From Gammaproteobacteria bacterium (GTDB taxonomy: Bacteria > Pseudomonadota > Gammaproteobacteria > GCA-001735895), in the NCBI GenBank assembly GCA_024638385.1, contig JAHEKJ010000026.1, positions 1 to 36,415 of the forward strand: DNA of 36,415 nucleotides, given 5' to 3'. Made by a program: the position numbers and the translations under genes. Positions 19,482-27,962 of this stretch are shown piece after piece. The notes beneath the pieces are model-generated. The model did no database searches. It worked only from the letters and a program-made list of their open reading frames with translations, and had not been told where the DNA came from. Numbering within the stretch: the stretch's first letter is position 1; each line of letters opens with the position of its first letter.

Positions 19482-21857
<2,376 letters not shown>

Positions 21858-24168: not shown

Positions 24169-24797
24169 ACCGGGTCGAGGAACAGACGCTCGCGCTCGCC
24201 GGCATGTTCCAGGCGGCGGTGCTCGTCGAGGCTCTCGCCAGCGACGGTCACTGCGACCGTGCGGCGCTCGATTGCAGCGTCGACAGCCTGTTCACCTTCG
24301 AAGCTCCGAGCGCGCTCGAGGTCTTCGGCGACGCGAACTGCCTCGCTATCGGCTTCGAGGCCCTGGTAGGCTATCTCGGCGGCCAGGCGCGGCAATCGGG
24401 GCGCAATGTCGCCTATTACGTCATGTCGATGTTCAAGCTCGCGGCTCGCCTGCAGCGAAACCCGGCGCTCGCGGAAACCCTGCACAAGGGCCTCGTCAAG
24501 GCCGAGCGCGGGCAGCGCGAATTCGAACTGCCGCGCGAGCAGCTGATCGGACATCTCGACCGCCTCTACCAGGACAACATCAGCCCGTTACAGCCCCGGA
24601 TCATGGTCCGCGGCGAACCGTCCTGTCTGCGCGATGCCGCGATCGCGGCGCGCATCCGTGCCCTGCTGCTCGCCGGGATTCGCGCCGCGGTGCTCTGGCG
24701 CCAGCTCGATGGCAGCCGCTGGCGCCTGCTCGTCGCGCGCCGACAGTTCGTCGATACCGCGCGGCGCCTGCGCGAATCGGGCCAGGATACGGCGTGA
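24165..24797 (+). CDS. hflD: High frequency lysogenization protein HflD homologue
   Basis: The protein has 210 residues, beginning at a GTG that overlaps the mnmA stop. It is the right length and largely helical: [54 protein letters not shown], and a C-terminal [18 protein letters not shown]. HflD is a peripheral inner-membrane protein named for its effect on lambda CII; its host role is unclear. Assignment rests on this pattern plus mnmA adjacency. purB, which usually follows, is absent; the next gene converges with a 4-bp gap. Confidence 0.92.
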
Positions 24798-24801
24798 ACC
24801 G

Positions 24802-25296
24802 TCAGAGGCCGTGGCGTTCGCGGATGTCGGCGAGCATGCCGCGCGCGGCGGCGTCGATCAGGTCGTAGACGCGGTCGAAGCCGGCGTCGCCAAAATACGG
24901 ATCCGGGACCTCGTCGCGGCCGCCTTCGGGCGCGAACTCGAGCATCAGGTGCGCGCGTGCGCGCGCGTCGTCCGGCCGCAGCGCCAGCATGTCGGCGAGA
25001 TTGCCACGGTCCATCGCCACCACGTAATCGAAATCGATGAAGTCGTTGGTATCGAAACGGCGCGCGCGCAAACCCGCCAGGTCGACGCCGCGCGCCAGGG
25101 CGGTCTGCTGCGAACGCGGGTCCGGCGGCGCGCCGATATGGTAGCCGTGGGTGCCGGCCGAATCGACCTCGATCCGATCGGCGAGCCCGGCCGCGTCGAC
25201 CAGCGCGGCGAAGACGCCATGCGCGGTCGGCGAGCGGCAGATGTTGCCCATGCAAACAAACAAAACCCGGATCGGGGGAGTCGCGTTCATATTCAT
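24802..25296 (-). CDS. Low-molecular-weight protein tyrosine phosphatase
   Basis: The protein has 164 residues. The phosphate-binding loop is VCMGNICRSP, with nucleophile Cys15 and Arg21 (CX5R) plus Ser22. The general acid Asp132 sits in VPDPYFG. It removes phosphate from tyrosine; bacterial homologues often act on capsule kinases or arsenate, but no kinase or capsule gene is nearby. A second ATG two codons downstream is possible, but AAGGCGG lies well placed for the first. It is divergent from the HisA-like fusion gene, the two starts being 94 bp apart. Confidence 0.95.
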   Translation of the reverse strand: MNMNATPPIRVLFVCMGNICRSPTAHGVFAALVDAAGLADRIEVDSAGTHGYHIGAPPDPRSQQTALARGVDLAGLRARRFDTNDFIDFDYVVAMDRGNLADMLALRPDDARARAHLMLEFAPEGGRDEVPDPYFGDAGFDRVYDLIDAAARGMLADIRERHGL

Positions 25297-25348
25297 CTAC
25301 CGCCTTGATACAAAGTCATCGATTCTTGATTCAGGGCAAAATCTTATT

Positions 25349-25357
25349 TGATATACT
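25349..25357 (+). promoter_or_regulatory. Candidate extended -10 promoter of the HisA-like fusion gene
   Basis: TGATATACT, the same extended -10 string as before ppsA, with the hexamer at 25352-25357, 33 bp before the ATG at 25391. TTGATT at 25326-25331 is too far (20 bp spacer) to be a normal -35. Confidence 0.45.
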
Positions 25358-25390
25358 CGCGCGCATAAACCCTCACGCGCGGTGGCCGCC

Positions 25391-26611
25391 ATGATAATCA
25401 TTCCCGAAATCCAGATCCAAGACGGCAAGGTCGTGACCCGGGCCGCGGTCCAGGGCGACGATATCCTGCACGAAATTACGCCGCGCGACGCGGTCCGGCA
25501 GTTCGTCGCCGAGGGTGCGCAGATGCTGCAGCTGGTCGATGTCGATGCGGCCCGTTCCAACCCCACGAACAACGCGGCGCTGATCAGGGAGCTGATCGAC
25601 GAGAACGATATTCCGATCCAGGTCGCCGGCGGAATACGCACGCTGGCGCAGATCAACGACTGGTTCGAAGCCGGCGCGGCGCGGGTCGTGCTCGGCACCA
25701 TTGCGATTACCGATTCACACCTCGTCGTCGAGGCCGCCAATCGCCATCCGGGCGGTGTCATCGTCCACCTGGCGACGCGCGGCGGTTACGTCATGATCGA
25801 CGGCTGGAAAACGCAGACCGCGTTCACACCGCAGGACCTGATTCGCGATTTGCAGATGACCGGCATCGCCGGCGTCATCCATAAGGGCACCGAGCGCCTC
25901 GACTCGGAAATGGAAGAAGTTCTGGCGCTGACCGAGCGGCTTAGCCACGATGTCTCGATTCCGGTCTACTCGAGCGGCACGGTGCGCAACCTCGACGACC
26001 TCGCGCGCCTGCGCTACCTGCCTAACATCAACGGCGCGATCATCAGTAACGCGCTGCTGTCGGGCGACATCAAGCTCAGGGACGCGTTGAAAATCGCGGC
26101 CGAGAAAGAAATCACCCTCGAACCCGAGTCGATCACGCACAATGTCGACATGGGCATTCACCACGGCGTGCGCGCCTACCTGGCGGCCTACAACAGTTCG
26201 CAGGCGTCGAGGGTCTGGAACCAGCAACTGCGCGATACGATCACCGAAGACAATCCCTATCTCGAGATGCTGATCCCGCAGGTCGATCTCGACCTCGATC
26301 TGGAGGCGATGACACCGCGCGAAATCCAGGCGGCCTACGAATCGGAACTCGACCGCGCCGACATCGTCGTAGTCGTCCTCGAGGGCGTCGAGGCCGAGGC
26401 CTGGACCGGTTTCGAGTGCGGCTACGCCCGCGCCCACGGCAAATATATCTACGGCATCACGTCGACCCAGGAAGTCAAGGGCCCGAGCCAGCTACGCTTC
26501 GAGGCGATGTGCGACGAACTGATCTATTTTACGTCCGACGACAATATCACCAAATCGCACGCCGAGATTTCGCACGCGCTGGCGACCCGCGTGATGGTCA
26601 AGAATCAATAG
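25391..26611 (+). CDS. HisA-like TIM barrel fused to a nucleoside 2-deoxyribosyltransferase-like domain
   Basis: The protein has 406 residues from ATG 25391 (a GTG lies three codons earlier). Residues 1-240 follow HisA: MIIIPEIQIQDGKVV, QLVDVDAARSNP, IPIQVAGGIRTLAQI, a phosphate loop at VAGGI and a second at SSGTVRNLDDL. The two HisA catalytic aspartates are lost: IPAID is IPEIQ (Gln8), and the second, in LDxRxG, is Ala128 in HLATRGG. So ProFAR isomerase activity is unlikely. Residues about 255-406 resemble nucleoside 2-deoxyribosyltransferases: RAYLAAYNSSQASRVWNQQL, DRADIVVVVLEG and AWTGFECGYARAHGKYIYGI, where Glu342 matches the family's catalytic Glu. The gene stands alone, with no his genes nearby. 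A role in a nucleotide- or ribosyl-linked reaction is inference. I know of no described function for this fusion. Confidence 0.85.
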   Translation: MIIIPEIQIQDGKVVTRAAVQGDDILHEITPRDAVRQFVAEGAQMLQLVDVDAARSNPTNNAALIRELIDENDIPIQVAGGIRTLAQINDWFEAGAARVVLGTIAITDSHLVVEAANRHPGGVIVHLATRGGYVMIDGWKTQTAFTPQDLIRDLQMTGIAGVIHKGTERLDSEMEEVLALTERLSHDVSIPVYSSGTVRNLDDLARLRYLPNINGAIISNALLSGDIKLRDALKIAAEKEITLEPESITHNVDMGIHHGVRAYLAAYNSSQASRVWNQQLRDTITEDNPYLEMLIPQVDLDLDLEAMTPREIQAAYESELDRADIVVVVLEGVEAEAWTGFECGYARAHGKYIYGITSTQEVKGPSQLRFEAMCDELIYFTSDDNITKSHAEISHALATRVMVKNQ

Positions 26612-26621
26612 CGCCGGAGAC

Positions 26622-26948
26622 TCAGCCGCCAGGATTGATGCACTTGTAGACCTGAAAGCTTTGTTGGCCCTCGTCGACGACCGTCAGCGGCACGATCGTG
26701 TCGCCGCCGAGCCGCGCCGCCGCGTTGCGCGCGACGACGCGCAGTTCCTGCACGATGACGTTGTCGGGGCGCCTGACCCCGGCGATCACCCAGGTGACCG
26801 ATGCGTTGGTCCGGCCAACCAGACGACAACTGTCGACCTCGTCGGGTCCGAGGACGCGGACCTTCTCGCCGTTGGGCGTCAGCTTGAGCGCGGTGGCGCA
26901 GCCGACGAGCAGCAATGCGGCGATGGTCGTGGCGATAATCGTTCTCAT
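26622..26948 (-). CDS. Small outer-membrane-type lipoprotein (DUF4156-like)
   Basis: The protein has 108 residues. A signal with lipobox LLLVGC ends at Cys17. The rest reads NGEKVRVLGPDEVDSCRLVGRTNASVT...NAAARLGGDTIVPL...FQVYKCINPGG, which resembles the DUF4156 family of small lipoproteins; two further cysteines could pair. An upstream reading frame exists, but AGGAGAGG before this ATG (seven bases) fixes the start. It is read leftward after the aldolase gene with a 16-bp gap and converges on the fusion gene with a 10-bp gap. Function is unknown. Confidence 0.82.
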   Translation of the reverse strand: MRTIIATTIAALLLVGCATALKLTPNGEKVRVLGPDEVDSCRLVGRTNASVTWVIAGVRRPDNVIVQELRVVARNAAARLGGDTIVPLTVVDEGQQSFQVYKCINPGG

Positions 26949-26964
26949 CTGGATCCTCTCCTGT

Positions 26965-27861
26965 TTAGGTTCGCGACGCCTGGAAAATGCTCTCGATCGA
27001 GGCATCCAGCGCAGCGTTGAATTCGTCGTCACTTTGTTGCGCCGACAGGCCCTCGGTCAGCGCGCGCGAAAAACTCGCGACCATGCCATTTTGCCGCGCC
27101 AGCCGAGCGTTGGCCTCCTCGCGCGTGTAGCCGCCGGACAAGGCCACGACCTTCAGTACGTTGCGATGCTCGATGCAATCGCGATAGAAGTTGTCGACCT
27201 CGGGCAGGGTCAGCTTGAGCATCACCAGTTCGCCGTCGCCGAGCTGATCGAGATGGGTCAGGATCGCGGTCTTGAGCAATGCCTCGATCGCGCCCTTTTC
27301 CGGGCTCTTGATGTCGACCTCGGGCTCGATGATCGGTACCAGCCCGGCGGCGACGATGCGCCGCCCGATCTCGAACTGCTGATCGACGACCGCATTGACG
27401 CCGTCGGCGTTCGCGCCCTTGATCACCGAGCGCATCTTGGTGCCGAAGACGTTCTTTTGCCGGGCCCGCTCAAGCAGGCCGTCGAGATCCGGCATCGGCT
27501 TCATGACCTGCGCGCCGTCGGCCTCGTCGGCAAGTCCCTTGTCGACTTTCAGAAACGGCACCACCCGCTTGACCTTCCACAGGTAGTCGGGCGTCGCCTG
27601 CGCCTCGACCTCGCGATCCATCGTGTTCTCGAACAGGATCGCACCCATGATGCGATCGCCGGTGAACGCCGGGCTGGTCATGATGCGGGTTCGCATCTGG
27701 TGGATGACGCCGAACATTTCGTCGTCGTTTGCATAGGCGCTGGCGTCGACGCCGTAGTTGGCCAGCGCTTTCGGCGTGCTGCCGCCGCTTTGGTCGAGCG
27801 CGGCGATAAAGCCCGGCTCGTTTCTGATCTTGTCGAGTTGCTGCTGATTAATTTTGCTCAC
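26965..27861 (-). CDS. fda: Fructose-bisphosphate aldolase, class I
   Basis: The protein has 298 residues from a GTG at 27861 preceded by GCAGGAATC; a longer upstream frame is not family-like. The N-terminus QLDKIRNEPGFIAALDQSGGSTPKAL is diagnostic for the bacterial class I type. The acidic EPEVDI is at 179-184, and the Schiff-base Lys is probably Lys216 in VMLKLTLPEV. It reversibly splits fructose 1,6-bisphosphate into DHAP and GAP without a metal. A -10-like TATACT lies on the minus strand at 27911-27916. It sits with fumC, not with other glycolytic genes. Confidence 0.95.
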   Translation of the reverse strand: MSKINQQQLDKIRNEPGFIAALDQSGGSTPKALANYGVDASAYANDDEMFGVIHQMRTRIMTSPAFTGDRIMGAILFENTMDREVEAQATPDYLWKVKRVVPFLKVDKGLADEADGAQVMKPMPDLDGLLERARQKNVFGTKMRSVIKGANADGVNAVVDQQFEIGRRIVAAGLVPIIEPEVDIKSPEKGAIEALLKTAILTHLDQLGDGELVMLKLTLPEVDNFYRDCIEHRNVLKVVALSGGYTREEANARLARQNGMVASFSRALTEGLSAQQSDDEFNAALDASIESIFQASRT

Positions 27862-27962
27862 GATTCCTGCTTCCGAAGTTGGGACGGGACGCCGCATGCG
27901 GCGCAAGCGGAGTATAAACTAGAGTGATTTTCGAATACAGTCGACGCGCTTGCGCGAGGCCG

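Follow-up and report, generated by a model that had tools for sequence, protein, structure and literature searches.

Relatives of the two domains

HisA is a standard model for (βα)8 barrels that gain functions (HisA, PriA, and TrpF). The ProFAR isomerases HisA and PriA (PF00977 and TIGR00007) form the barrel family to which, by sequence, the N-terminal half of the fusion protein analyzed in this study belongs. According to a portion of PMC9088769, the distal, non-reactive phosphate of ProFAR is gripped by R83 and S103 of HisA, the imidazole is stacked by W145, and the catalytic acid is D176. The C-terminal half belongs with the nucleoside 2-deoxyribosyltransferases (NDTs) and the DNPH1-type nucleotide N-glycosidases (PF05014). 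In AvNRT, Asp79 lies six residues before the catalytic Glu and binds O5′ together with the Asn of an NLM motif (a portion of PMC7308715), while DNPH1 has a triad of Y24, D80, and E104, in which D80 is the acid and E104 is the nucleophile (a portion of PMC10603095). A PfkB kinase-NDT architecture is named in a portion of PMC13329287. Such fusions were found here in other Pseudomonadota (L094, L116, L117, L118, and L119; 405-436 aa; PF00294 and PF05014 by Pfam). Their NDT domain likewise lies at the C-terminal end of a larger phosphate-binding enzyme. However, they differ from the HisA-NDT fusion in their kinase partner, in retaining the canonical D-D-E residues, and in forming a separate NDT clade. 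No description of a HisA-NDT fusion was found in the open-licence literature searched. Both of its domains come from known families, and neither half has every defining feature tested.

Organization of the fusion gene

The window is the whole stretch of DNA analyzed, 36,415 nucleotides in length (contig JAHEKJ010000026.1 of GCA_024638385.1, positions 1 to 36,415, forward strand). One ORF at 25391..26611 (+) encodes the fusion protein of 406 aa. It starts with the ATG at 25391; there is a GTG codon 9 bases 5′ of this ATG, and the relatives of the fusion have the start region M-x-I-I-P-E-I-Q in common. An earlier reading of the DNA without database searches (the sequence-only reading) had proposed that a HisA-like barrel and an NDT-like domain are joined in this gene. 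Profile searches bore this out. Residues 3-227 (25397..26071, +), the HisA-like (βα)8 barrel, match Pfam His_biosynth with 147.6 bits (cutoff 23.6), and residues 263-361 (26177..26473, +) match Nuc_deoxyrib_tr with 39.1 bits (cutoff 28.8). Residues 228-262 (26072..26176, +), between the two Pfam matches, comprise a linker and the beginning of the C-terminal part. The C-terminal half by itself scored 41.6 bits against Nuc_deoxyrib_tr (PF05014; gathering cutoff 28.8), which points to the NDT family at the level of sequence similarity.

Is this protein the HisA of the cell? With the equivalog model TIGR00007 of NCBIfam, the fusion protein scored 150.5 bits, which is under the cutoff of 228.95, unlike HisA and PriA. 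In the same genome, HisH, HisA, HisF, and a HisE domain are encoded together on contig C37; all four pass an NCBIfam cutoff, and this canonical HisA scored 264.7 bits against the same TIGR00007 cutoff. Since the his cluster lies on another contig and its HisA passes the cutoff that the fusion fails, the fusion protein is not the cell's HisA. The alternative that the genome lacks another hisA gene is thereby ruled out.

Distribution, kinship, and selection

Among the 41 genomes of the order examined, the fusion was found in 24 of 31 from the window's genus and in none of 10 from two sister genera; G018 and G023, both counted among the 24, have it in pieces that lie in two frames. In a draw of 369 genomes of the class, four have the C-terminal half. 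Three of them belong to the genus, while the fourth, G253, is a distant gammaproteobacterium of another family and has a 433-residue protein with both domains. The fusion is conserved. When the C-terminal half of G253 was used as the query, three genomes of a 369-genome draw matched. The family and order of G253 comprise two genomes, one of which has the fusion. In a draw of 398 genomes of the phylum, the window's own genome was the only match. A scan of named genome contigs gave 23 loci from Gammaproteobacteria/Proteobacteria MAGs and the Olavius algarvensis Gamma 3 endosymbiont, a sulphur-oxidizing worm symbiont (a portion of PMC9587655). The fusion is carried by a group of mostly uncultured Gammaproteobacteria.

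On average, pairs of the 22 genus members are 77% identical in the barrel and 74% in the C-terminal half; the identity to G253 is 45% and 33%, respectively. dN/dS could be computed for seven of eight genus pairs and was 0.03-0.18 in the barrel and 0.04-0.09 in the C-terminal half; these values are rough because dS exceeds 1 in many comparisons. A pseudogene or an assembly artefact is unlikely, since the halves share one frame in 24 distinct sequences and dN/dS is low. The fusion is real, and purifying selection acts on it.

In a barrel tree with 21 canonical HisAs and seven methyltransferase-fused barrels, 23 fusions including that of G253 form one clade (100/98), although long branches make the deep order of this tree unreliable. 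In the NDT tree, which includes 22 other NDT sequences, the C-terminal halves of six fusions group in a single clade (100/100). The simplest reading is a single origin of the fusion, followed by divergence or transfer. A mobile or defence origin was considered and found no support: the C-terminal half matched no phage record and no plasmid record, the scan of viral contigs with the G253 protein gave no relative, and neither the window protein nor that of G253 (L059) matched any of the 5027 PADLOC models at E 0.01. Ten of 71 plasmid records match the HisA half only, up to 58% of the query.

The methyltransferase-fused barrels represent another case in the same genus in which a HisA-derived barrel is joined to a second domain. 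The window's genome has one of 504 aa on contig C157 (L003, 1480-2994, +), and this fusion or a fragment of it occurs in 15 of the 31 genomes of the genus, among them G019 and G024, both of which are without the NDT fusion. In contrast to the HisA-NDT barrels, these barrels form a separate clade, having His at the D8 position and keeping Asp128 in 7/7 aligned. A link between the two fusions by co-occurrence was without support; the presence of one does not track the other.

Remodeling of the barrel

The barrel positions were mapped via the Salmonella HisA structure 5a5w and counted in 24 distinct fusions, or in 22 genus rows for the C-half phosphate site and the new residues. Canonical HisA has Asp at the D7, D129, and D176 positions in 21/21 sequences. 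In the window protein, Gln8 (25412..25414, +) aligns with the catalytic Asp7 and Ala128 (25772..25774, +) with Asp129, just as the sequence-only reading had stated. Its count of two replaced acids fell short by one, for Leu170 (25898..25900, +) aligns with the catalytic Asp176 (role in a portion of PMC9088769). Among the 24 fusions, 21 have Gln at the D7 position, L047 has His, G253 has Glu, and one truncated row lacks the position. At the D129 position, G253 has Asp and the other 23 have Ala, Thr, Ser, or Val; at the D176 position, 16 have Leu, six Met, one Asn, and one Phe.

In common with HisA and PriA, the phosphate site in the N-terminal half of the barrel is intact (GGIR at 80-83 and GT at 102-103). 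The distal-phosphate gripper is kept (R83 in 23/24 fusions and T103 in 23/24), and so is Trp139, which corresponds to W145 of Salmonella HisA, in 21/24 (Leu or Gly in the other three). In contrast, the phosphate site in the C-terminal half of the barrel has been rewritten. SGG is changed to SGT in 22/22 genus fusions, Gly219 to Ser in 21/22, and Arg220 to His in 21 or Asn in one. G253 also has SGT yet retains Gly219-Arg220. Thus, of the two phosphate loops that had been reported as present, only that of the N-terminal half is unaltered, and the proposed retention of phosphate binding would fit one of the two sites. Since R83, T103, and the Trp are kept while the acids and the C-half site are changed, the AICAR-ribotide side of the barrel, as judged from the alignment, is kept and the rearrangement side is altered.

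The barrel is probably unable to perform its old isomerase job. A ProFAR isomerase that is ordinary, though divergent, and carries an accessory domain would agree with the overall similarity of the barrel to HisA, but the alteration of all three acid positions and of the C-half phosphate site, the failed TIGR00007 cutoff, and the canonical HisA in the genome make it scarcely credible.

On the other hand, the barrel has gained residues. Glu6 is found in 22/22 genus fusions (Ala in the 21 HisAs) and His126 in 21/22 (Gly, Ser, or Ala in the 21 HisAs), each lying two residues ahead of a lost Asp on its strand. Lys165 is found in 21/22, with Arg in L047, while HisA has Thr in 21/21; this Thr presumably has a catalytic role. 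From that presumed role and from strand alternation, I infer that the side chains of Glu6, His126, and Lys165 face the pocket. The G253 barrel has Asp6 and Glu8, but Asn126 and Thr165. I argue for remodeling rather than decay, because these fusion-specific residues are nearly invariant. The protein appears to be a natural example of a HisA-derived barrel that lost its isomerase residues, kept one substrate half-site, and gained a glycosidase-type domain. The order of these changes may be studied through the G253 protein, since it still has one of the lost Asp residues and a part of the C-half site.

The new residues raise the question of a two-step enzyme. In such an enzyme, the NDT half would release a sugar phosphate, and the barrel would process it or a linked intermediate with Glu6, His126, and Lys165. 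The near-invariance of the three residues against Ala, Gly/Ser/Ala, and Thr in HisA, and the location of two of them near the lost acids, are consistent with this idea. However, G253 lacks the His and the Lys, L047 has Arg165, and the pocket-facing orientation is itself predicted. I consider a two-step enzyme unlikely. In a more elaborate form, a barrel cut down to the AICAR-ribotide half-site and given the new catalytic set would bind AICAR ribotide or a related monophosphate, the N-ribosyl bond would be cleaved via Glu342 without the usual acid, and the sugar phosphate would be handled in the barrel. This form is less likely still; if it were true, the fusion would serve to dispose of or to sense purine/histidine intermediates, a step of which no description was found in the literature searched.

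The C-terminal domain

The 24 fusions were compared with 22 other NDT-family sequences. Besides the domain match above the cutoff, the fusions share with PF05014 enzymes the Glu that aligns with the NDT nucleophile, Glu342 (26414..26416, +), and Tyr263. Each is present in 24/24 fusions, and the Glu and the Tyr are each present in 21/22 of the other sequences. Thus, the catalytic-type Glu noted in the sequence-only reading is in place. Unlike PF05014 enzymes, the fusions carry the barrel and have Tyr316 (26336..26338, +) in 24/24, in a column that is Asp or Asn in 19/22 of the others and that I take to be the column of DNPH1 D80. The position six residues before Glu342 is Asp in 22/22 of the other sequences, while in the 24 fusions it is Glu in 19, Lys in two, and Asp, Thr, and Ala in one each. 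Since an acid still occupies this position in 20/24 fusions, some recognition of O5′ may be retained. None of the six aligned fusions has the Asn or the Met of the NLM-type motif; among the others, Asn is found in 15/22 and Met in 20/22.

The sequence-only reading had singled out LEG in place of the usual LDG as a departure. This is not telling: the fusions have LEG in 17, LDG in six, and LDE in one, and the middle residue in the 22 other NDT sequences is Asp in 10, Thr in six, Asn in four, and Ser in two. Tyr316 is the clearer departure from the family. The idea of a base/ribose enzyme is plausible given the conservation of Glu342 and Tyr263 in 24/24 fusions and is weakened by Tyr316. With Tyr in place of Asp/Asn in all 24 fusions, catalysis in the C-terminal half may be lost, and the altered residues (Tyr316 and the NLM-type Asn and Met) make ordinary deoxynucleoside transfer look unlikely for this domain.

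A nucleophile kept without its acid invites another explanation. Cationic leaving groups generally need no acid catalyst. The fusion might thus be a glycohydrolase for a cationic leaving group (of the NMN, NAD, or N7-alkylpurine type), needing a nucleophile and no acid; this would account for Glu342 being kept while the Asp/Asn at position 316 is lost in 24/24 fusions. ADP-ribosyl cyclase-like enzymes belong to the same Pfam clan, according to a portion of PMC7308715. However, the protein gave no match to NAD-cleaving families in Pfam and NCBIfam at the thresholds used, and the genomic context lends no support, so that such a glycohydrolase is very unlikely.

Several minor features of this domain were also seen. 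Cys343 (26417-26419), right after Glu342, and Cys374 (26510-26512) are each present in 24/24 fusions, while Cys is found at these positions in 1/22 and 4/22 of the other NDT sequences, respectively. L115 (genome G536) is an NDT-family sequence with Gln replacing the nucleophile Glu.

Possible function

I tentatively favor, at somewhat less than an even chance, a nucleotide-binding barrel that lacks isomerase activity and is coupled to a divergent N-glycosidase. The fusion would be a vertically inherited, stand-alone protein with no role in histidine synthesis. Its barrel would bind a nucleoside 5′-monophosphate or a similar phosphoribosyl compound without isomerizing it, using the kept half-site as in the AICAR-ribotide half of HisA: Arg83 and Thr103 for the distal phosphate and Trp139 for the ring. 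The C-terminal domain would act on an N-ribosyl bond, breaking or transferring it through a covalent glycosyl-Glu342 step. Since Tyr316 replaces Asp/Asn and the NLM-type motif is absent, its substrate may be other than an ordinary deoxynucleoside. The barrel might either feed the substrate to the C-terminal domain or gate it. If the barrel binds AICAR ribotide, histidine and purine intermediates would be linked to N-ribosyl chemistry.

A close rival, possible but less probable, is a sensor or regulator. Both halves would be catalytically silent ligand-binding domains acting on a partner protein, for example to detect AICAR ribotide or a different purine/histidine intermediate. The altered catalysis-linked residues in both halves and the retained gripper half-site speak for a sensor, but it would leave unexplained both the retention of Glu342 and Tyr263 in all fusions and the gain of near-invariant Glu6, His126, and Lys165. 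Moreover, Pfam and NCBIfam profile searches of the protein gave no match to a DNA-binding or signalling domain. The sequence-only reading had offered both an unfamiliar ribosyl reaction and a sensor; these still lead, and its interpretation is supported in part.

Gene neighborhood

The fusion gene is divergent from a tyrosine phosphatase gene, as described before. It is of the low-molecular-weight phosphotyrosine phosphatase type (24802..25296, −; LMWPc, 127.5 bits). On the other side, profile searches identified a convergent gene for a DUF4156 protein (26622..27032, −) and a class I fructose-bisphosphate aldolase-like gene (26965..27906, −). Farther upstream in the window are genes for isocitrate dehydrogenase, a kinase/pyrophosphorylase, and phosphoenolpyruvate synthase (19482-21857), and mnmA and hflD, in an order that recurs in the longer loci. 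Of the 23 loci, many of which are short, 13 show mnmA, 13 the phosphatase gene, 20 the DUF4156 gene, and 18 the aldolase gene. No his genes were found among the neighbor genes checked around the fusion, in agreement with the sequence-only reading, and most neighbor genes have no purine, histidine, or nucleoside link. No functional operon was found at the window locus. The promoter-like box that had been assigned to the gene is unsupported, since a consensus scan of 25200-26750 gave 0 sigma-70-like promoters. Rfam gave nothing in 24600-26800.

Among the seven genus genomes without the fusion, two have the aldolase gene and the other five are incomplete assemblies. In G027, other genes follow the aldolase-DUF4156 pair. 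The G024 contig stops about 1 kb past the pair, with no match to the fusion up to there.

Some fusions lie at other genomic sites. L044, L046, and L048 have none of the tabulated fusion-flank genes, save a weak 32% aminotransferase match in L048, and the flank of L047 has only the DUF4156 gene and a transglycosylase gene in common with the window locus. A molybdopterin oxidoreductase gene lies close to the fusion in L044 (2615-6961) and L047 (7649-9706), and L044 also has a nitrate-reductase-delta-like gene and an NrfD gene near the fusion. A gene for a BLUF blue-light sensor is located close to the fusion of G253 (L059, 546-983, +).
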